A stretch of 64,000 nucleotides of DNA from Arthrobacter zhangbolii (GTDB taxonomy: Bacteria > Actinomycetota > Actinomycetes > Actinomycetales > Micrococcaceae), in the NCBI RefSeq assembly GCF_022869865.1, contig NZ_CP094984.1:3224001-3288000 (forward strand). Direction: 5' to 3'. The notes beneath the pieces are model-generated. The model saw nothing but the letters and a program-made list of their open reading frames with translations. It was not told the DNA's origin and did not search any database. This document shows, one piece after another, positions 6,201 to 23,120 of the stretch (position 1 is the stretch's first letter; every line of letters starts with the position of its first letter). A program made the translations under genes and the position numbers.

Positions 6201-8024
6201 TTAGGCCACCGTGGGACTCCCACCCTTGGTTTTGTTTGCTGTGCGGCGTCTCTGCGTCCGTGAGACCTGATGGGATGTTTCGGTTCTGGGCTGTCTGGAT
6301 TGCCCGGCTAATGGACCGGTACTCGTGTTCTGCACTCGTGAAACTAGATCATCCAGCAGGGGCTCCCACCGACCGTAGTCCGTAGCCTTGGCATGGCTCT
6401 CAAGCCAAAGTGGAAATTCATACTTCCCTCGAGGGGTGAAGTCGTAGCGGTACTCTCCACCGTGTTTCGCTTTGGACTTAAGGACTATCTCCTCACCTTG
6501 CTGCTCAACGAAATGTTGCATAAGCGCGGCGGGGAACATCCATTCGCTCTCTGCATCCTGCTGGCCTACGTAAGTGAGGTATTCCAGCACGGAGCGCTTG
6601 TCGAAACCGAATCTTCCGGTCATCAGGTTCCGCCCTGCCCTACCCTCCTCGTCTGAATCGAATAGGGCAACTATTTCCTGCGTGGCCTCTGCCCTCAAGA
6701 GGACCGACTGAGCAGCGACTGAGTAGGCTCCCTTGCAAGGAATGATCGTAAGACCAGCCAAGTCCTTGGACCGCCCCAGAGCCTTGATAGCCAATTCAAT
6801 GAACTGTTTGTCCGTTTCTCCCTCCACGACCAGGATCACTCTGCTGCGTGATGGAACAGAAGCGTATCGATCAAGGAGTTCCGGGATGACGGAATCAACA
6901 AAAAGACCCGACAAAAGGCTGGCATGCTCCTCATTTCCCTGAGCTGTACCGACGAGCTTCGAAACGCCATCTTTAACGGTTTTCTCCAAGGCGACGACTT
7001 GAGCGGCAGGCGATCTGGAGACGATATACGGTGAATGTGAAGTGACCAGTAGCGTAACGTCATCCCGTTCAGCAAGGCCCTCAAGGTCGTCTCGAAGAGA
7101 ATGTTGTGCAGCTGGGTGGAGGAAGGCTTCAGGTTCTTCAAGAGCGAATATAATAGATTGTTTACTCGCATCACTCAGATAACGAAGCAGGGCGATGAGG
7201 ACACCGCCAGCCACGCCAGTTCCCTTTGATGCTAGGTCCGTCTCCACGGAATCGGTGAGTCGTATCCCGATATTCGAGAGCGTGTCCTCCAGAGAGGTCA
7301 CGGCAGGAATGAGGCCAACTTCCGTAACCTCAGGAAAGAGACGTTTACTCAATTGAAGGATTTTGTCCCGCATCGGCGCAAGAAGACTTTGCTGCAGGTG
7401 TTCCTCATAAACAGTGCGAGCTTTTTCTGAGTCGCTATAAGCTGTGCCGAGTTCCTCCCGAAGTACTGAGTGTAGAATCTCACGGAATTGGCCAACGAGA
7501 AGCGCTTCAATACTCTGTCCGCTCTCGACGGAGACAAATCTAACGAGTTGACGGAACTTCTTTAGCGCTTGCTCGTTTAGCTTCGGGTCGCCGCGGCGCC
7601 CACCCACGCCTTTCGCCGCGAAATATTCTTGCCTAATCAATCCCGTGGTGCGACTGCCCCGGTATTTAACGACAAGGCGTATCTCTCCATTGGCTGCGTA
7701 TGTGGGTTTCCCGAGACCTACGACGCTCTCTTCGTATTCCGTCAAGTAGCGGATCAAGGTTTTCTCGGGACTGGTGCGAGGCTTGATTTTAAATGTCAGC
7801 ATTATGTGTGGATAGGCATAGCGAAGCTGCCCAGGAACGTCATTGTCGGGATTGAACTCATATGATGGGTCTAATGCGAGCTTGAGCGCTCTAACGAGGT
7901 TCGATTTTCCGCAGTTATTTGGTCCAACAAAGGAATTCATGCCGGAGACTAAGGGGACGTCAAAGGCGCCCACAAAGGAACGGAAGGATCTTATTTCTAA
8001 GCGCACTAACTTCAATTTCCACAT
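6201..8024 (-). CDS. OLD-family ATPase/TOPRIM nuclease, probable anti-phage protein
   Basis: A 607-aa protein starting at MWKLKLVRLEIRSFRSF. The N-terminal ABC-type ATPase has Walker A GPNNCGKSN, Walker B IIFALEEPEAFLHP and switch histidine in VTSHSPYIVS. A C-terminal TOPRIM nuclease follows, with VVEGETDKQF and ALFDSDEEG acidic motifs. This is the layout of overcoming-lysogenization-defect nucleases, and of GajA of Gabija; no UvrD-like GajB or other partner is adjacent, so it looks like a solitary class 1 OLD. Base composition is clearly lower than its neighbours (26 of 60 bases G+C at 7141-7200, against 42 of 60 at 9241-9300), a sign of transfer. An in-frame extension to 8129 is possible but looks non-coding. 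Confidence 0.85.
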   Translation of the reverse strand: MWKLKLVRLEIRSFRSFVGAFDVPLVSGMNSFVGPNNCGKSNLVRALKLALDPSYEFNPDNDVPGQLRYAYPHIMLTFKIKPRTSPEKTLIRYLTEYEESVVGLGKPTYAANGEIRLVVKYRGSRTTGLIRQEYFAAKGVGGRRGDPKLNEQALKKFRQLVRFVSVESGQSIEALLVGQFREILHSVLREELGTAYSDSEKARTVYEEHLQQSLLAPMRDKILQLSKRLFPEVTEVGLIPAVTSLEDTLSNIGIRLTDSVETDLASKGTGVAGGVLIALLRYLSDASKQSIIFALEEPEAFLHPAAQHSLRDDLEGLAERDDVTLLVTSHSPYIVSRSPAAQVVALEKTVKDGVSKLVGTAQGNEEHASLLSGLFVDSVIPELLDRYASVPSRSRVILVVEGETDKQFIELAIKALGRSKDLAGLTIIPCKGAYSVAAQSVLLRAEATQEIVALFDSDEEGRAGRNLMTGRFGFDKRSVLEYLTYVGQQDAESEWMFPAALMQHFVEQQGEEIVLKSKAKHGGEYRYDFTPRGKYEFPLWLESHAKATDYGRWEPLLDDLVSRVQNTSTGPLAGQSRQPRTETSHQVSRTQRRRTANKTKGGSPTVA

Positions 8025-8742
8025 CTCCAAGCTCTCGGAACCTGTCGTAATTCTTACATGGTCTATAGCGCTTGGTGGGCAGTGCGAAAGACGGCGTGTC
8101 GAATGTAACCCCTCTGGATGGATGGGCACTAGAAGTACTCCGGCAGCATATTCTTTGGTCGATTGTGCATGGGGATCAACCTAGCCATTGCTGTGGGTAT
8201 CATCGGTACGAGCGTCATCGAGGGGCCCACTTCGGATTTGAGTGCATCACTACAAGAACGCACACAGCCGAGGAAGCAGCCTGCGCCAGAAGTAGCGACT
8301 GGGAACATACCCCAGGATCAGGCTAAGCAGCAGCGGAACCAGCGCTCGAAGTGTGGTGTCCAGACGGCGCATCAGCGACCCGGCCTGGGCGCCGGGGATC
8401 GGTCCGAACGGGGTTTCCTTGGGCGGAAGAGTCCATCGGGCTGGCCCCGGTAGTCGCCCGGAGCCGACGTGCCAAACCCCACACCTGCCAGCAGGATCGC
8501 CCGCGCCGAGCAGCAACAGCACACAACGCCCGGGTCCACGACGCCAGCGCAGCAGCAGGCAGCACCGCGCCCACCGCCGGAACCGCAGCAAAGACCGCCA
8601 CAGCAATCACCCCTTGAGGCTTCCTCCATGTGAATTCGGACGCTCACGGAATATCCCTCGCAGCCCACATGGTTGCCCTAGGCATACCAACTGCAGCCAG
8701 GGAGAACCCACGTCCCGCTGCGAGCAACCGAAGGACCCCCAC
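8025..8742. other. Stretch without a supportable gene
   Basis: About 700 bases between the OLD nuclease and the old yellow enzyme. The left third keeps the low GC of the nuclease; from about 8300 the GC is high again. Overlapping minus-strand reading frames at 8250-8610 encode hydrophobic fragments in two different phases, which could be a frameshifted relic, but I recognise no family. The promoters of both flanking genes must lie here. Confidence 0.5.
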
Positions 8743-13780: not shown

Positions 13781-14773
13781 TTAGCGCTTTGACGGCTGCG
13801 ACGAGCGGTCCTCTCCCAAGTACTGCGACTCGATGTCCTTGCTCCAGGCACGCGCGTAGAGGCCAAGAATCGCCTGTTCCCTATACGGGAAGCCCAGCCG
13901 GTTGAGTGCCAGCTGGCTGACACGCGTAGCCAGCTGCTGCGCACTGCGGCTGATGCGCTGCTTGTCAGCCCGGTACAAATACTCGTCAACGGCTCTGGCC
14001 CAGCGCTTGCGCCAGACCTCCACTGCCGTCTCTGCGGCCAACGCGGCCATTATTCGGTGGACGGGCACTACCCTGGGCGCAATCTGAGCCATCATTGTTG
14101 TGCGCACCTGTGTGGCATGCGGGCCCGCCGCACCGACACAGGTGCGCAGATGAGCGTCCCAGAAATAGTCCCAGCTAGTGGTCCTGCGGTCGGCCCAAAC
14201 AGAGGACCGGGGTCCGCGCATCATTGCGTGCCCCGTATCGAAGAGAAGCAGGGCACCCAGCATCGAACGCATGTTGGGGCTGGGGAAACGGTTGACCGCC
14301 CACAACGCCAGCGTCGATGACAGCTCGGAAATCTCCGCCGCCAGTTCCAAGCCCTTAAACCCGCCAAAGTATGCAAGAGGCGCTTCAAGCAACTCAGGCA
14401 CCGGTTCGCCCGGCGGCGGATAAACAACGCCAGGCGACTGGGTGATCTTGACCGCCCCCACTGTGGCTACGTTTTCGTCCGCCAGTGCACGCGCAAACTT
14501 CCAGGTGCGTTCGATGACATGCTCGGGGGCACGCAAATGCAGGTCCACGACGGGGGAAACGGGTTCCAGGCGCCGGACAAACCGAAACCTGTCCCCTTCC
14601 CCGGCCCGCAGCTGGGAAGAGAGAGGGCCAATAATATGGCGGACAATATCGTCGCCGGCCTCCTCACGATCCGGCTCAAGGGTCAGCATTGACCACAGCA
14701 TGGTGCTGGATCGCGGCTGAGGACGGGCAGGTACTCCTCGATGTACAGTGTCCGATTGGATTACGCGGTTCAT
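13781..14773 (-). CDS. Stand-alone SpaB_C (thiopeptide-type bacteriocin biosynthesis)-like protein, paralog 1
   Basis: A 330-aa protein. The order of motifs fits the C-terminal domain of lantibiotic dehydratases: an N-terminal LWSMLTLEP, a FRFVRRLEPVSPVVDLHLR strand pair (family FxRY...hLRLR), a YFGGFKGLELAAEISELSS block (family RYGG...S) and a C-terminal ALNRLGFPYREQAILGLYA (family HMhxNRL...E). In full LanB proteins this domain eliminates glutamate from Ser/Thr; split versions also serve thiopeptide and related pathways. No dehydratase N-domain, cyclase or precursor is near. The start at 14773 is chosen because the sequence before it matches that of paralog 2. Family assignment is by eye. 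Confidence 0.65.
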   Translation of the reverse strand: MNRVIQSDTVHRGVPARPQPRSSTMLWSMLTLEPDREEAGDDIVRHIIGPLSSQLRAGEGDRFRFVRRLEPVSPVVDLHLRAPEHVIERTWKFARALADENVATVGAVKITQSPGVVYPPPGEPVPELLEAPLAYFGGFKGLELAAEISELSSTLALWAVNRFPSPNMRSMLGALLLFDTGHAMMRGPRSSVWADRRTTSWDYFWDAHLRTCVGAAGPHATQVRTTMMAQIAPRVVPVHRIMAALAAETAVEVWRKRWARAVDEYLYRADKQRISRSAQQLATRVSQLALNRLGFPYREQAILGLYARAWSKDIESQYLGEDRSSQPSKR

Positions 14774-14996
14774 ATCATCCCCAAAAAAAGATCGTCCTGA
14801 CTTCGGGTGTGCTCCCAACGATGCGTTCCCAACACTGTGTTGCCAAAAAGCGAATGTCCATACAGATTCTTGAAAATCTTCATCCGTTTGCCTCGGGGCT
14901 TCCTTTTCTGCGTGCACATAGCCACCATGGAATGTTGCGGTAGGCGGCGCGCTGCGGCCGACCTCCCCGGTTTCTCACCAGTACAAGACGCACCTT
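14774..14996. other. Upstream region of SpaB_C-like paralog 1
   Basis: The frame of the downstream gene stays open here to a GTG at 14917 but the translation (rich in His, Ser, Phe) looks non-coding. Directly before the ATG the minus strand reads TTGGGGATGAT, nearly the same as before paralog 2 (TTGGGGATGAA). I see no separate gene in the rest. Confidence 0.4.
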
Positions 14997-15260
14997 CTAG
15001 GCGGACTTACCCGTGGTGCCCAGCTCCTCCCATAGGAAAGCCAGCATGGCGGCTCCGGCTTTGAGGATGTCGATCCGGGCGCTCTCGTCGCTGTGCCAGT
15101 TATCCTCCACCAGACCAGTCCCGAATCAGACCACGGGAATGTTCAGGGGCGAGGAGAGCAGTTCGGCTGGCCCGCCACCGGCGTTGCCCATCCGCCCCAC
15201 CTTGGGCGCCTGAAAGCCTCGAGCCATTGCGCGGTCCCTACGGAGAACCGGACCCGGACG
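14997..15260 (-). pseudogene. C-terminal remnant of an M20-family dipeptidase
   Basis: The minus strand translates as KVGRMGNAGGGPAELLSSPL, then NIPVV, an in-frame TGA at 15126-15128, then FGTGLVEDNWHS and DESARIDILKAGAAMLA, ending with TAG at 14997-14999. This is the conserved C-terminus of M20/M25 metallopeptidases (FGTGLxEDNWHSxDES). One codon appears lost in the HSSDES motif and the N-terminal catalytic domain is missing; an in-frame stop closes the frame at 15306. It is a decayed fragment. Confidence 0.85.
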
Positions 15261-15392
15261 GTCGTCGAGGCCGTCAGTTCGGCGCCCGAAGCCCTCGCGA
15301 AGCTGTCAAGAGGTCCGATCCCGCCCGGCCGGGCACTATTCTGCAGAGAAAATACCGGCGAGGCCACCTCAAAACATGGAATGATCCGTTCC

Positions 15393-16007
15393 ATGACGTC
15401 CAGCCTGGATCCAGCGACCGAACCTGTCAGCCAACAGAGTGAAGCTGCAGGCAGCGCATCGACGACGGAATACAGAGTGCTCTCCGTCAGCCGAAGCAGT
15501 AAGCACAACTTCAGCAAGGACCGGTTGGAATCGGTTCTGCTGGTGGAAGGGCTCGGCATCGACGGAGACGCTCATTCCGGTACTACCGTGCAGCATGTGT
15601 TCAGGAAGAAGTCGCACCCCGCGGAGCCCAACCTGCGGCAAGTACACCTGATCCAGGCGGAACTGTTCGACGAACTGGCGCAGGACGGCTTCGAAGTGCG
15701 TCCCGGCGACCTCGGGGAAAACATCACCACCCGCGGCATCGACCTGCTGAACCTGCCGGAGGGCACCCTCCTGCGGATCGGACCCGACGCCGTCGTCCAG
15801 ATAACCGGCCTGCGGAACCCCTGCCGGCAGATCGACCGCTTCCAACCCGGCCTGCTCAAGGCCGTGTTGCCCCGCGACAGCGCCGGAAAAGTTGTGCGCA
15901 AGACGGGAGTGATGGGCATCGTCCTGACCGGTGGAATGGTAAGCATCGACGATGAAATCCGCGTGGAGGTTCCTGACGGGCCGCAGCGCCGGCTTAGGTG
16001 TGTCTGA
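15393..16007 (+). CDS. MOSC domain protein
   Basis: A 204-aa MOSC (MoCo sulfurase C-terminal) domain protein of the YiiM type. Seen motifs are EGLGIDGDAHSG near residue 50, the GDLGENITTRGIDL block, and the invariant cysteine in GLRNPCRQIDRF. Such proteins transfer sulfur to or from metal cofactors and help detoxify N-hydroxylated bases. The start is uncertain: the ATG at 15393 has GGA 12 bases upstream, and an ATG at 15381 adds four residues. It stands alone, facing the M20 relic on one side and convergent with the alcohol dehydrogenase on the other. Confidence 0.88.
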   Translation: MTSSLDPATEPVSQQSEAAGSASTTEYRVLSVSRSSKHNFSKDRLESVLLVEGLGIDGDAHSGTTVQHVFRKKSHPAEPNLRQVHLIQAELFDELAQDGFEVRPGDLGENITTRGIDLLNLPEGTLLRIGPDAVVQITGLRNPCRQIDRFQPGLLKAVLPRDSAGKVVRKTGVMGIVLTGGMVSIDDEIRVEVPDGPQRRLRCV

Positions 16008-16077
16008 GCAGCCAGGCGCCGACACCGACGGAACCCGGGACGGGCAAAACCCGACAGCATCCGCGCCTAAAACGCCG

Positions 16078-17100
16078 TTACGGAGTCAGCAGCACTTTCA
16101 CCGCCCGGCGCTCATCCATGGCCCGGTAGCCTTCCGCGGCATCCTCGAGGGGAAGCGTGAGATCAAAGACCTGACCCGGATCGATGCTCCGGTTCCAGAT
16201 CAGCTCGATCAATTCGGGCAGGAACCGGCGGACCGGCGCCGGGCCGCCAAGCATGTTGATTTCGGCGAAGAATAATTCCAGCCCCGGCAGGGCGACGTCG
16301 TGGGAGACACCCACGAACCCCATGTGCCCGCCGGGACGGGTGGAACGGACCGCCTGCATCATCGACTCCTGTGTGCCCACGGCCTCCACCACCGAGTGCG
16401 CGCCGAGCCCGTTGGTCATGTCCTTGATGACGGCCACGCCGTCGTCGCCCCGTTCGGCGACAATGTCCGTGGCGCCGAACCGGCGGGCCATTTCCTGCCG
16501 TTTCGGGTGCCTGCTCATGGCGATGACCCGCTCGGCGCCGAGTTGGCGTGCGGCCAGAACGGCAAGGAGCCCGACGGCGCCGTCGCCCACCACTGCCACG
16601 GTCTTGCCGGGACCTGCCTGTGCCGCCACGGCACCGAACCAGCCGGTACCGAGCACATCGGAGGCGGCCATCAGCGAAGGCAGCAGGCCGGCGTCGGGCT
16701 GGCCGGGAGTAGCGACCAGGGTGCCGTCGGCTAGCGGAATCCGCGCGAACTGCGCCTGGGTGCCGATCGCACCCATGGGATAGGCCTGCACGCAGCGGCT
16801 CTGGTAGCCGGCCCGGCAGATCTCGCAGGTGTTATCGGAGGCCCAGAAGGAGCCGACCACAAAGTCCCCGGGTTTCAGCGTGCGGACGTCGGCCCCGATC
16901 TCCGTGACCGTTCCCACGTACTCGTGGCCCATCGGCGCAGCGGATGACACCTCTTCAATGCCTCGGTACGGCCAGAGGTCGGAACCGCAGATGCAGGTTG
17001 CGGCGAGTTGGATGACAGCGTCCGTGGGCTCCAGGATCCGCGGGTCCTCCCGGTCCTGGACGCGGATATCTCCGGGGGCATGAATGACAACTCCGCGCAT
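16078..17100 (-). CDS. Zinc-dependent alcohol dehydrogenase family protein
   Basis: A 340-aa medium-chain dehydrogenase. The N-terminal GroES-like domain has CGSDLWPYRG and GHEYVG (catalytic-zinc Cys, His and Glu). A structural-zinc loop shows only three of the usual four cysteines (CEICRAGYQSRC). The Rossmann domain carries GDGAVGLLAVLAARQLGA for NAD(P). GAAGGAG lies six to seven bases before the ATG. The substrate is unknown; neighbours do not help. A second, mostly deleted copy of this gene exists at 13580-13680. Confidence 0.9.
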   Translation of the reverse strand: MRGVVIHAPGDIRVQDREDPRILEPTDAVIQLAATCICGSDLWPYRGIEEVSSAAPMGHEYVGTVTEIGADVRTLKPGDFVVGSFWASDNTCEICRAGYQSRCVQAYPMGAIGTQAQFARIPLADGTLVATPGQPDAGLLPSLMAASDVLGTGWFGAVAAQAGPGKTVAVVGDGAVGLLAVLAARQLGAERVIAMSRHPKRQEMARRFGATDIVAERGDDGVAVIKDMTNGLGAHSVVEAVGTQESMMQAVRSTRPGGHMGFVGVSHDVALPGLELFFAEINMLGGPAPVRRFLPELIELIWNRSIDPGQVFDLTLPLEDAAEGYRAMDERRAVKVLLTP

Positions 17101-17371
17101 GAGTGTGCTCCTTCGAAGGATCCAGTGCTGTCACTTTCCAGCAGAGCACCCGGCACCTTCCCCGGGAAGTCCAAAACCTTGACGGCGAACACCGGCGGGC
17201 CATTTCGCCGGCGCGCCCGCTGCAGGAGGATGGGCGGCGGGGAACCATCGTTTCGCCGGGCGAACCCCACGCGCAGATTCGCTTGCCGCCTCCAGATCCG
17301 CGGCGCCCGGGTGTTCGGCATGGAGGTCGATCCAGCCCATGCCGCGCAGCCGTGGCCACTACGCTGGAACA

Positions 17372-18010
17372 ATGACGCACAGCTTCGACAAGGACTACTG
17401 GGAGCAGCACTGGCACGAAGCCCCGGACACTGATCCGGACACGGGCCACGAGCCGCCCGCCAACCCCTACGTGGCACGCCTCGCGGCCGAACTTCCGGCG
17501 GGCACCGCACTGGACGCCGGCTGCGGCACGGGAGCCGAAGCCCTGGAACTGGCTGCCGCCGGCTGGGATGTGGTCGGCGCCGATGTTTCTGCGTCGGCCC
17601 TCGCCACGGCAGCCCGCCGGGCCGAAGCGCAGACCCTGTCCGGCAGCGTGACGTGGACGGAAGCTGACCTGACAGCTTGGGAGCCCAGCCGTCGCTTCGA
17701 CCTGGTCACCACCAACTACGCCCACCCGGCGATGCCGCAGCTGGCGTTCTACTCCCGCGTCGCCGAGTGGGTGGCTCCGGGCGGGACGCTGCTGATTGTC
17801 GGGCACGCGCACGACGACGATGCCTCCACCGCGCACGGGCACCACCCGCCGGAGGAAGCGACGGTGACGGCCGAAGCCATCCGGGCACTCCTGGACCCGG
17901 CGGCATGGGACATCACCGTTGCTGAGGAACATCCGCGCTCCATGACCGCGCCGGACGGCACCCGGGTCACCCTGCGCGACGTCGTCGTCTCCGCCACGCG
18001 CCGCACCTAA
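17372..18010 (+). CDS. Class I SAM-dependent methyltransferase
   Basis: A 212-aa soluble protein with the Rossmann-type SAM site: motif I LDAGCGTGAEALEL, acidic motif II VVGADVS, then ADLTAWEP and a hydrophobic strand LLIVGHAH. The start is the ATG at 17372 with GGAAC upstream. Methyltransferases of this size act on small molecules or tellurite; a more exact substrate cannot be read. The 270 bases before it, towards the divergent alcohol dehydrogenase, hold the two promoters and no gene I can support. Confidence 0.85.
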   Translation: MTHSFDKDYWEQHWHEAPDTDPDTGHEPPANPYVARLAAELPAGTALDAGCGTGAEALELAAAGWDVVGADVSASALATAARRAEAQTLSGSVTWTEADLTAWEPSRRFDLVTTNYAHPAMPQLAFYSRVAEWVAPGGTLLIVGHAHDDDASTAHGHHPPEEATVTAEAIRALLDPAAWDITVAEEHPRSMTAPDGTRVTLRDVVVSATRRT

Positions 18011-18114
18011 CCCGGCTGCCCGGACGGAATTTTCACAGCACCGCGGATGCTGAACCCTGCAAGGAGCAGCGCCCCACCGGCGTTGCCGACTGAACACCAC
18101 CGAAGGGGTACGCA

Positions 18115-18831
18115 ATGCCGACACTTGGAATCATTGGAAGCGGAAACATCGGCTCAGGCGTCGCGCGGCTGGCCGTTGCGGCCGGAATGAACGTGGTCAT
18201 CGCCAACTCGCGCGGGCCCGAGTCCCTGCAGGACCTGGTCGCCGAATTTGGGCCGCTGGCCCAGGCAGGCACCGTGGAGGACGCAGCGAAACTCGGCGAC
18301 GCCGTCGTACTCTCCATTCCCCTGAAGGCGGTGCAAGAGCTGCCGGAAGGGCTGCTGGAGGGCAGGTTTGTCCTCGACACCAGCAACTACTACCCCTCCC
18401 GGGACGGTCGCATCGCGGAGCTCGACGCCGGGACGGTGACCACCAGCGAACTGGTCTCCGGCTGGCTGCCCGGCGTGCGCTACGTCAAGGCCTTCAACAA
18501 CATCCTGGCCCACCACCTGCCGCAGCTGGCCCGCCCCTCCGGAGCCCCGGACCGCTCCGCACTCCCGATTGCCGGCGACGACGACCAGGCCAAGGCCGAA
18601 GCGCAGGCGATCATCGATGCGCTGGGGTATGACACCGTGGACGCCGGACCGCTGTCCGAGAGCTGGAGGTTCGAGCCGGAATCGGCCGGGTACACGCGCA
18701 TCTACCTCGCAGATCCGAACACCCCGGATGACCAGCTGCTGAGCTCGGTTCCCGGGCCGACGCCGGCCGACCGGGTCGAATCCGCCCTGGCCTCCGCCAG
18801 CCGGGTGAACGTGGCAGACCGCGTCTTCTAA
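18115..18831 (+). CDS. NADPH-dependent F420 reductase-like NAD(P)-binding protein
   Basis: A 238-aa protein whose N-terminus is a dinucleotide-binding fold (LGIIGSGNIGSGVARLA, then IANSRGPE, where the Ser-Arg suggests NADP). The middle part (LDTSNYYPSRDG, VKAFNNILAHHL) matches the F420:NADPH-oxidoreductase/COG2085 family. Whether it uses F420 is open, as many actinobacterial members do not. GAAGGGG precedes the ATG. It is followed by two hairpins and by the convergent SpaB_C-like gene. Confidence 0.85.
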   Translation: MPTLGIIGSGNIGSGVARLAVAAGMNVVIANSRGPESLQDLVAEFGPLAQAGTVEDAAKLGDAVVLSIPLKAVQELPEGLLEGRFVLDTSNYYPSRDGRIAELDAGTVTTSELVSGWLPGVRYVKAFNNILAHHLPQLARPSGAPDRSALPIAGDDDQAKAEAQAIIDALGYDTVDAGPLSESWRFEPESAGYTRIYLADPNTPDDQLLSSVPGPTPADRVESALASASRVNVADRVF

Positions 18832-18843
18832 GCATCAGGGGCT

Positions 18844-18866
18844 TCCGCCGGGTCCGGCCCGGCGGA
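18844..18866. terminator. Hairpin terminator after the F420-reductase-like gene
   Basis: A 9-bp perfect stem (18844-18852 with 18858-18866) with a 5-base loop lies 13 bases past the stop codon. Confidence 0.65.
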
Positions 18867-18872
18867 CCCCTG

Positions 18873-18910
18873 CCGGATGCCCGCCGACTGCCGGCCCAGC
18901 GGGCATCCGG
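18873..18910. terminator. Second hairpin, between convergent genes
   Basis: A 12-bp perfect stem (18873-18884 with 18899-18910) with a 14-base loop lies six bases from the stop of the minus-strand SpaB_C-like gene. With the first hairpin it forms a back-to-back terminator pair. Confidence 0.7.
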
Positions 18911-18916
18911 GATGGG

Positions 18917-19906
18917 TTATCCCTCGCCTGAATAGTGCGCTTCGGCCTCCTTGCTCCACGCGCGCGCATAGAGTCCCAGGGTTGCCTCTTCGCGGAGGGA
19001 AATGCCCAGCCGGTTGAGCATCAGCCCGCTCGCAGCCATGGTCAGCCGCTGCGCACTCCGGCTGACCCGCTGCTTATCCGCCCGGTACAGATACAGATCG
19101 ATGGCCTGCCCCCAGCGCTTGCGCCACAGATCCACCGCCGGCTCGGAGGCAAGGGCGGCCATCACCCGGTGCATGGGCATAATCCGCGGTGCCATCCGTG
19201 CCACCATGGCCCTGCGGACATGCTCTGCGGGCTGACCGGAGGCTCCTATGCAGGCCTGCAGATGGGCATTCCAGTAATAGTCCCAGCTGGTGGCCCTGCG
19301 GTCAGGCCAGAGGGCGGACCGGCGGCCGCGCATCATGGCATGGGCGGCGTCGAAGAGCAGCAGGGCCCCCAGCGTGGAGCGCATGCTCGGGCCTGGAAAG
19401 CGGTTCACCGCCCACATGGCCAGATCCGCGGACAACTCCGAAACCTCCGCCACCAGTTTCAGGCCGTGTTCCCCGCCGAACCGGGCAAACGTGGCTTCCA
19501 TGAGCTCAGGGACCGGTTCGCCCGGAAGCGGCGGGTAAACAATGTCGATCGGTGTGGAGAGCTTCACCGGTCCCAGCGCTGCAGCATTCCCGTCCGCCAG
19601 CGTCCGGGCAAACTTCCACGCACGTCCAACAACAACTTCGGCGGCGCGCAAATGCAGGTGTACCGCGGGATGATCCGGGGCCGGGTTCCGGGTGAACCCA
19701 AACCGGTACCCGCCCCAGGCGCGTGCCTGGGCACTGAGCGGGACGGCAACGCGGCGGATAACCGCATCCCCCCAGTCCCTGTGCTCCGGTTCAGGTGCCG
19801 CCGATTCTATGGTCAGGATGGACCACAGGGTGCTCTCTGACAGCTGTCCCGCAGATCGGCCGGGCAGTTCTCTCCGTACGGCATGTGCTTGCGTTGTCTG
19901 GCTCAT
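18917..19906 (-). CDS. Stand-alone SpaB_C (thiopeptide-type bacteriocin biosynthesis)-like protein, paralog 2
   Basis: A 329-aa paralog of the protein at 13781-14773, similar end to end (WAVNRFPGPSMRSTLGALLL against WAVNRFPSPNMRSMLGALLL). The SpaB_C signature is clearer here: FGFTRNPAPDHPAVHLHLR, ATFARFGGEHGLKLVAEVS and LMLNRLGISLREEATLGLYA. The family's usual His before Met-x-x-Asn-Arg is missing in both copies, so activity may differ from glutamate elimination. Both start behind TTGGGGATGA. No modification partners or short precursor genes are visible within several kb, so these could act in trans on a peptide encoded elsewhere or have a new role. Confidence 0.68.
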   Translation of the reverse strand: MSQTTQAHAVRRELPGRSAGQLSESTLWSILTIESAAPEPEHRDWGDAVIRRVAVPLSAQARAWGGYRFGFTRNPAPDHPAVHLHLRAAEVVVGRAWKFARTLADGNAAALGPVKLSTPIDIVYPPLPGEPVPELMEATFARFGGEHGLKLVAEVSELSADLAMWAVNRFPGPSMRSTLGALLLFDAAHAMMRGRRSALWPDRRATSWDYYWNAHLQACIGASGQPAEHVRRAMVARMAPRIMPMHRVMAALASEPAVDLWRKRWGQAIDLYLYRADKQRVSRSAQRLTMAASGLMLNRLGISLREEATLGLYARAWSKEAEAHYSGEG

Positions 19907-20096
19907 TTCATCCCCAAGATTGTTTGGCCTTTGGCTTCCCCCGCAACAAACAGACCCCCTGAGCGGGAGTCTTTGCGCCGTGCCCGGTGAACCGAAACCG
20001 GGCTGCGATACTCGTTTCCTGCGCGGAAATAGCGATTATGGCTGGCTGAGCCGGAGGGCACACGGGTAGTCGGGGTGTGGCCGGGCAGTGCCGGCC

Positions 20097-21974: not shown

Positions 21975-23120
21975 CTACGTTGAGAGGCCGCCGGGAGCTT
22001 CGGGGCCGGTGGGCCAGCGCAGCAGCGCGGCGACGCCGGCACCGCCGGGCAGCACGCCGTCGGGCACCAGAAGCAGGCTGGCGTCCGTCAGTGACGCCGC
22101 CCGCAGCATTGCGGACGGCGCGGACACGTGTCCCAGGACTTCCGCGCCGAGGGCGTGCTCCTCCGCGGTGGCAAGCCAGGGCTCGGCGCCCAGGGCCAGC
22201 ATCTGCCGGTCGGCGAGCGCACTGTCGTTGAGGATCAGCACGTCCACCTGCGCCTGCTGCAGTGCAGTGACCACTGCTCCCACGCCCATGGCCGATTCGG
22301 GGTTCGCCTGCCCTTCCTGCAGGGCAAGCCGGTCCATGATTTGATCCTGTTCGGCTGCCCACTGCAGGGCAACGCGTTCCAGGACCCGGTCCTGGAAAAC
22401 CTGCTGGTGGGAGTCTTCGGGGCGGGGCTCGGAATCGATCATGCTGACCAGCGGCTTGTGCGCCTCCGCCAGCTGTTCCTGCACCAGCCCCCGGGCGCGG
22501 ACATCCCCGGCAAGCACAATCAGCCGGGCGCCGCTGCTGTCCACCACCCGGTCGATCGTTTCGGCCATGTCCTCCGCGTTGCGGCGCCAGACTTCCTCCG
22601 TGCGGCGCTGCATCTTGTCCTGCCCCCAGATGCCGCCGGACACTTTGTGGATGTCCTCGGTGGAACCTTCGACGTCCTCCACGGACGGAGGGCCGGGCCG
22701 GCCGACATATTCCAGCCGGATCTCCCCGCCCTCGCGTGATACGTCGGCAACAATGTACGGGAATTCCTCGGGACGGTGCTTGAGCAGCGGCAGCAGATCC
22801 GGCACCAGGTCAACGGAAACCTGCTGCGGGGACACCATTGGACCGGGGAGCAGCTCGTTCAGTTCCACCCCGCCCTGCCGGACCAGGACAAAACGCGAGA
22901 TCGGGGCGGGCAGCCCGTAGGCAGGATCCACTGCGGTTTCCATCGCCTGCTGGTCCTCCGGTGGTGCCCCCTGCGCGGCCAGCGCTGCGAGGACATCCCC
23001 GGGACGGACCTCGGCGGCCTCCTTGGCGTCCACCGTGCCGGCACCGGCGTCAACATAGGCGGCGCACCACGGCCCTTGTCCCCGATACAGATCCGCAAAT
23101 TTGTGGAGCTTCTCCGTCAT
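21975..23120 (-). CDS. Rv2629/Balon-like eRF1-fold protein, possible ribosome hibernation factor
   Basis: A 381-aa cytoplasmic protein that matches the actinobacterial Rv2629 family in length and pattern: an N-terminal acidic domain, a central eRF1-like domain with GARLIVLAGDVRARGLVQEQL, and a C-terminal domain with AMGVGAVVTALQQAQVDVLILND (release-factor/pelota-like). Rv2629 and its mycobacterial relatives belong to the aeRF1 homologues that include Balon, which enters the A site of idle ribosomes. AAGGAG sits seven bases before the ATG. The hibernation role is inferred from the family. It overlaps no neighbour. Confidence 0.75.
   Translation of the reverse strand: MTEKLHKFADLYRGQGPWCAAYVDAGAGTVDAKEAAEVRPGDVLAALAAQGAPPEDQQAMETAVDPAYGLPAPISRFVLVRQGGVELNELLPGPMVSPQQVSVDLVPDLLPLLKHRPEEFPYIVADVSREGGEIRLEYVGRPGPPSVEDVEGSTEDIHKVSGGIWGQDKMQRRTEEVWRRNAEDMAETIDRVVDSSGARLIVLAGDVRARGLVQEQLAEAHKPLVSMIDSEPRPEDSHQQVFQDRVLERVALQWAAEQDQIMDRLALQEGQANPESAMGVGAVVTALQQAQVDVLILNDSALADRQMLALGAEPWLATAEEHALGAEVLGHVSAPSAMLRAASLTDASLLLVPDGVLPGGAGVAALLRWPTGPEAPGGLST

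Follow-up and report, generated by a model that had tools for sequence, protein, structure and literature searches.

Stand-alone SpaB_C proteins of Arthrobacter zhangbolii and a conserved Micrococcaceae gene module with two short peptides

Introduction

The C-terminal elimination domain of LanB dehydratases (SpaB_C, Pfam family PF14028) forms part of enzymes such as NisB, is a separate protein in split LanB systems, and occurs as a stand-alone protein in the pyridine synthases TbtD and PbtD. Two genes for proteins of this kind, called here copy 1 and copy 2, are located in a 64,000-nucleotide stretch of the genome of the soil bacterium Arthrobacter zhangbolii (contig NZ_CP094984.1, positions 3,224,001 to 3,288,000), which is referred to below as the window. 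The two genes are described together with their family and with a third member from the same genome, the core copy, which is situated in a conserved gene module outside the window.

The likeness to LanB enzymes (NisB) and to split-LanB C-proteins consists of the common PF14028 profile family and of a retained YGG-type block and NRL motif. The present system differs in that no LanB N-domain was found in the genome or in the genus, that copies 1 and 2 lack the elimination His, and that the core copy is paired with two peptides that have no recognised description in the open-licence literature. According to the accessible part of PMC7268733, some class I lanthipeptide clusters contain additional LanB elimination domains as separate proteins, and a modification other than elimination was proposed for them. 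The genome mining in that part of the study was anchored on LanC and would therefore probably not meet the family described here. The lone domains of that study occur alongside a full LanB, in clusters anchored on LanC; in the genus Arthrobacter no LanB N-domain was detected.

The gene order of the module also recalls the RRNPP pairs of Bacillota, in which a small propeptide adjoins a cytoplasmic regulator (PMC10075063, in part). The differences are a LuxR-type helix-turn-helix (HTH) regulator with a sub-threshold TrmB match and no tetratricopeptide repeat (TPR) match, and an actinobacterial host. The portions of PMC4748050, PMC9659744 and PMC13220807 that were available contain no comparable system. 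The open-licence literature as a whole yielded no recognised description of the module, which is not proof of its absence from print.

The two SpaB_C proteins of the window

Copies 1 and 2 are paralogs within SpaB_C (PF14028), the family of the LanB elimination domain (Table 1). The initial annotation had described them as full-length paralogs behind a common leader, and this description holds: both open reading frames (ORFs) are intact on the minus strand and the same leader stands before each start. Copy 1 (13784-14773) matches PF14028 (Lant_dehydr_C) with 28.6 bits over residues 30-304, the gathering cut-off being 24.4 bits. Copy 2 (18920-19906) has no Pfam match of its own, and its kinship with PF14028 follows from its identity to copy 1 over 328 aligned columns. 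No NCBIfam match was found for either copy. The proposed kinship is thus borne out for PF14028 but not for TIGR03891 (thiopeptide-type bacteriocin biosynthesis domain, cut-off 48.45 bits), which neither copy matches. The highest identity of copy 1 is 72%, to a protein of Arthrobacter zhaoxinii (L005), and copy 2 is 66% identical to a protein of Arthrobacter yangruifuii (L004).

Table 1. Positions of the two SpaB_C-like genes and their leaders in the window.
Feature	Position	Strand	Remarks
Lone SpaB_C-like gene, copy 1	13781..14773	-	330 aa, ATG at 14773; PF14028
Lone SpaB_C-like gene, copy 2	18917..19906	-	329 aa, ATG at 19906; 58% identity to copy 1
Leader with TTGGGGATGA, copy 1	14774..14784	-	Probable ribosome-binding region; direct reading
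Leader with TTGGGGATGA, copy 2	19907..19917	-	Probable ribosome-binding region; direct reading

When they are aligned with the C-termini of four LanB proteins and with the C-proteins of two split LanBs, both copies keep the order of the C-terminal LanB motifs, as had been proposed. The second strand reads LHLR in both copies and not, as the initial annotation had it, in the LRLR-type form of LanB. The His of the HMxxNRL motif, which corresponds to the catalytic H961 of NisB (a residue with Arg partners), is replaced by Q in copy 1 and by G in copy 2, so that the residue by which LanB elimination is recognised is missing from both.

A direct sequence search of the PDB with copy 2 gave nothing, and the family profile gave two chance-level matches. 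The AlphaFold model of copy 2, built from seven sequences, has a mean pLDDT of 49 and reaches moderate confidence only at about residues 30-120. Upon comparison of this low-confidence model with 350,542 PDB chains using Foldseek, TbtD (5wa4) ranked first with an E value of 0.002. NisB, TsrL and MadB are also among the top 20 (E 0.002-0.01, low TM-scores); unrelated ferredoxin-like and other proteins rank between TbtD and NisB, and no match reaches E 0.001 or better. This ranking is only a hint, and nothing is built on it. TbtD and PbtD share with the copies a stand-alone SpaB_C protein of about 310-330 residues. They differ in that NF045556, the TbtD/PbtD equivalog, is matched by neither copy and that no LanB N-domain is at hand to form dehydroalanines.

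Distribution of the family and of the LanB N-domain

The genome (3.46 Mb) contains five copies by the family's own profile, where two had been noted earlier. PF14028 matches occur in 29 of 29 Arthrobacter genomes, with 1-6 per genome; these counts are lower bounds, as the Pfam model detects only three of the five copies here. Copy numbers vary among the genomes of the genus. The family profile matches 30 of 149 Micrococcaceae genomes, in 9 of 32 genera. In the phylum sample, A. zhangbolii apart, it matches 3 of 295 genomes, all weakly. The core SpaB_C protein has no match in the plasmid and phage collections, which therefore give no sign of a mobile origin.

PF04738, the LanB glutamylation domain, has no match in this genome or in any of the 29 Arthrobacter genomes that include it. 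The search works, because the same model matches 10 of 296 genomes of the phylum sample, nine of them above the cut-off. PF14028 is found in nine of these 296 genomes; eight also carry PF04738 and the ninth is A. zhangbolii. A divergent LanB N-domain or a peptide aminoacyl-tRNA ligase (PEARL) elsewhere in the genome, glutamylating substrates for copies 1 and 2, might have been missed, since a genuine split LanB (G050) scored no more than 21.7 bits with PF04738 when the genomes were scanned. This explanation is highly improbable given the absence of PF04738 from the whole genus and of the elimination His from both copies. In addition, a profile built from two rows, the nearest split LanB proteins, matched only its two source genomes and none of 49 other genomes (29 of the genus and 20 of the family with SpaB_C), a weak negative. 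The claim that the modification apparatus is absent stands for the LanB N-domain, no genome-wide search having been aimed at LanC or YcaO. The changed His and the missing N-domain of the earlier account are supported, and so is its suggestion that the proteins work apart from the usual lanthipeptide and thiopeptide pathways.

The core module and the peptide c6

The core copy (C1:3324560-3325519 of the genome) has orthologs throughout five genera and forms part of a conserved module, whose peptide genes the initial annotation had missed. The four parts of the module are a short upstream peptide gene (wxw), the SpaB_C gene, a second peptide gene (c6) immediately after the latter, and a LuxR-HTH regulator gene in divergent orientation. 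The core copy scores 66.1 bits against PF14028, and that of another genus reaches 48.2 bits against TIGR03891 (cut-off 48.45).

The c6 peptide has 55-63 residues and ends in ..YLRDAAWADxxWx. Its ORF follows on the same strand at 28 of the 73 member ORFs of the first locus set, four of which are duplicates; in 7 of the 28 its start, as called, overlaps the SpaB_C stop by 4 bp. The peptide is present in 26 of 149 Micrococcaceae genomes (5 of 32 genera), and all 26 are among the 30 that have the SpaB_C family. Four genomes have the family without c6. In two of these (G033 and G050) the SpaB_C protein stands behind an 826-827 residue LanB N-protein (PF04738, 48.4 and 30.1 bits), in G093 the contig ends within the SpaB_C gene, and the fourth is G036.

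The c6 gene is under strong constraint. In eight pairs the ratio of nonsynonymous to synonymous divergence (dN/dS) is 0.03-0.12 while synonymous divergence is high. The N-terminal half varies between genera, but all 19 rows of an alignment share the pattern Y-x-R-D-A-x-W-A-x-x-x-W. A DNA-binding HTH was considered for c6 and rejected, there being no Pfam or NCBIfam match and no conservation of the N-terminal half across genera. The elimination His is retained in 26 of the 28 c6-linked core copies of the first locus set. Over 85 distinct members, drawn from 130 ORFs, it is present in 34 of 36 that are c6-linked and in 14 of the 49 others.

Some loci deserve separate mention. At G006:C8:1067001-1068198 the core SpaB_C gene is in two overlapping pieces, an apparent frameshift or sequencing error, and the c6 frame behind it is open. 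Split-LanB clusters at L104:3232-10967 and L105:3578-9815 each encode an 826-827 residue LanB N-protein and a SpaB_C protein. The L105 cluster also has a weak match to a SagB-type dehydrogenase, and the L104 cluster a similar-sized protein with no match; the latter cluster carries a regulator of the core-module regulator family.

The upstream W-x-W peptide

The wxw gene encodes a very short peptide ending around W-x-W, which is MMKSWDWF in this genome. An alignment of the gap between regulator and SpaB_C genes at 11 Arthrobacter loci shows a ribosome-binding site together with a reading frame of 7-17 codons, which ends in KSW[D/E]WF or KVWDWI. The other four genera have longer peptides (44 residues or more) at the same position. 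A simple rule and visual inspection mark their N-termini as signal-like, in these genera only. Their forms include MKKIIGAAAGLLVAAAALAPATPAVGAASWDWPKTISASWDWPK, four to six GVWDWPQQ repeats, IWDWKN and IWGWPQKT tails, and AAWDW at the C-terminus; some versions carry SWDWPK, and the number of WDWP repeats reaches six.

W-x-W ORFs were first sought with a loose pattern, which picked them up at 24 of 28 c6-linked rows. A stricter pattern, applied to the 85 distinct members, found wxw at 35 of 36 c6-linked members versus none of the 49 others, and the 36th (L088) has GVWDWPQQ repeats by reading. The strict pattern occurs in 2 of 586 other upstream regions, one of the two being an ORF that overlaps the module of L094 itself. 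At L103 and L106, where c6 is not in view, the variants YDWP and WAWP were read by eye.

A small hairpin follows shortly after the wxw stop in all 19 Arthrobacter rows with varied sequence (z-scores -2.1 to +0.7); in 12 rows of the other genera the z-scores are -4.0 to +1.0. The hairpin bears on two alternative explanations. In lanA-lanB operons a precursor gene is followed by a read-through hairpin and then by the enzyme gene. The same order here, together with retention of W-x-W across genera and of the hairpin in 19 of 19 rows, would suit wxw rather than c6 as the substrate of SpaB_C, with c6 as a helper. This is unlikely in view of the Arthrobacter hairpin z-scores and of the W-tailed peptides that adjoin relatives of the regulator with no SpaB_C relative nearby (0 of 12 extended loci; a distant SpaB_C may escape). 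Sec signals are, moreover, unusual in precursors of peptides that are modified in the cytoplasm. The second explanation concerns the Arthrobacter ORF, whose 7-17 codons, two Trp codons and hairpin soon after the stop resemble a leader that attenuates the SpaB_C-c6 operon and signals nothing. It is distinctly unlikely, as the other four genera have peptides of at least 44 residues there, whose N-termini are signal-like and whose WDWP repeats number as many as six. Neither a T run nor an alternative hairpin was seen, and no systematic search for one was made.

The divergent regulator and its relatives

The module regulator has a LuxR-type HTH above the cut-off, a sub-threshold match to TrmB and no TPR match. 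It is divergently oriented at 26 of 28 c6-linked copies, and a more distant regulator is present at L103. With no more than five candidates scored per genome, relatives were detected in 27 of 396 genomes of the phylum, in 14 genera; 11 of the 27 belong to one genus with genomes of 6-10 Mb.

Twenty-nine regulator loci outside this genome were viewed with about 1.5 kb of flank each. Seven of them (L150, L155, L156, L158, L160, L169 and L177) adjoin a small signal-like peptide, as judged by eye. The tails of such peptides include DTGWD and DNGWW, as well as DPGWQ, DLPWTR and IFDIG, the last three in repeats. A rule that counts signal-like small ORFs with W among the last five residues gave 9 in 111 kb of regulator loci, three of which look spurious, compared with 3 in 222 kb of Micrococcaceae sequence and 2 in 42 kb of LanB regions; the LanB rate is not far below that of the regulator loci. 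No relative of the present SpaB_C family was found in 12 regulator loci extended to about 17 kb, with a profile that may miss distant SpaB_C proteins. The W-tailed peptide thus seems to follow the regulator, and c6 follows SpaB_C. It is possible that the regulator relatives and the small signal-like peptides form a wider signalling family.

Descent and surroundings of the window copies

In a tree of 69 rows both window copies fall within a 35-row clade of peptide-less members (support 99/100). Copy 1 is nearest to the A. zhaoxinii copies and copy 2 to those of G016 and A. yangruifuii. The dN/dS ratio is 0.20-0.26 against the nearest relatives and 0.27 between the two copies, several dS values being near saturation. 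Six core pairs have 0.03-0.10, and other peptide-less pairs 0.03-0.62. The ratios of 0.20-0.26 indicate that the window copies are not decaying freely.

No module peptide or regulator was seen beside either copy. The surrounding genes encode a bactofilin-like protein (below cut-off), a MOSC protein, an alcohol dehydrogenase, a methyltransferase, an F420-type oxidoreductase and a carboxymuconolactone decarboxylase. The coding pattern of the c6 tail, A-W-A-[D/G-type]-x-x-W, has no occurrence in the window, a weakly informative result with 1.4 expected by chance. The earlier suggestion of peptide modification thus suits the core paralog with its two conserved short peptides, but no such neighbour was seen for the window copies themselves.

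Solitary position, loss of the His, variable copy number (1-6 PF14028 matches per genome of the genus, a lower bound) and dN/dS values above those of the six core pairs could also mean that the window copies are functionless remnants of lost clusters for ribosomally synthesized and post-translationally modified peptides (RiPPs), now under relaxed selection. We consider this rather unlikely: dN/dS is well below 1 after substantial divergence, with several dS values near saturation, and both genes have kept their full length and a common ribosome-binding leader.

Peptide-less SpaB_C paralogs are found within a few kb of each other elsewhere, at L125:916-13103 (four), L118:221-9840 (three) and L124:8401-11099 (two); the L118 copies at 221 and 7168 have a dN/dS of 0.62. 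Two further genes of the window lie on the minus strand. The long ORF at 6201-8129 has a P-loop-like motif (GPNNCGKS) and 53.5% G+C, compared with about 66% in neighbouring stretches, and is perhaps a recently acquired ATPase gene. The gene at 21978-23117 encodes a bacterial archaeo-eukaryotic release factor family 2 protein (PF18844, 139 bits).

Proposed roles of the proteins and peptides

From the observed family membership, distribution, gene order, co-occurrence and constraint we infer the following binding partners, signalling and chemistry, as well as a role for the window copies. The window genes would be derived duplicates of the Micrococcaceae stand-alone SpaB_C protein. Most likely the core protein would bind c6 as a RiPP-like substrate and modify (or chaperone) it, glutamate elimination playing no part. 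The wxw peptide is leaderless in Arthrobacter and has a Sec-like signal in the other four genera; it would be the signal read by the regulator, which in turn would control the SpaB_C-c6 pair. The window copies would have lost the peptide neighbours, the regulator and the elimination His, and are probably non-eliminating peptide-binding or accessory proteins that act in trans. Taken as a whole, and judged from sequence, this combination of roles for core copy, wxw and window copies comes near to an even chance without reaching it.

Several observations weigh against it. The L103 locus of G036 has kept SpaB_C and the regulator, and no c6 was found there. In the conserved c6 tail Cys is absent, and most rows offer no Ser or Thr for dehydration. 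The elimination His is still present in 14 of the 49 peptide-less members. Other basic positions of the core proteins vary (K or H for R), because of which core catalysis may be absent. The loose W-x-W pattern had chance matches at 3 of 45 other rows, and the tiny Arthrobacter ORF with two Trp codons and a hairpin could be an attenuator. Constraint in some of the pairs without peptides equals that in core pairs (dN/dS 0.03 and 0.07), and the window copies are tied to c6 by nothing beyond descent.

A broader proposal is possible but more doubtful. Actinobacteria might possess an unrecognised peptide-pheromone family that drives, in Micrococcaceae, a minimal RiPP pair formed by a lone SpaB_C protein and a ..RDAAWADxxW peptide, the window genes being neofunctionalised duplicates. 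The pheromones would be Sec-exported or leaderless Trp-tailed peptides (WDW, SWDWPK, DTGWD, DPGWQ), sometimes repeated, the sensors would combine a LuxR-type HTH with a TrmB-like part, and neither glutamylation nor elimination would be involved.

A conserved core gene between two short peptide genes for which no description was found hints at an unrecognised peptide system. A function of stand-alone SpaB_C proteins beyond glutamate elimination and pyridine formation is a possibility raised in the accessible part of PMC7268733. The genus Arthrobacter provides a natural, genus-wide case with no detected LanB N-domain, and the two co-conserved peptides make that question directly testable. If the pairing of regulator and peptide is real, it would be a genetically simple candidate for peptide signalling in a phylum whose signals, according to the available part of PMC10075063, are typically small molecules, those of Bacillota being oligopeptides.

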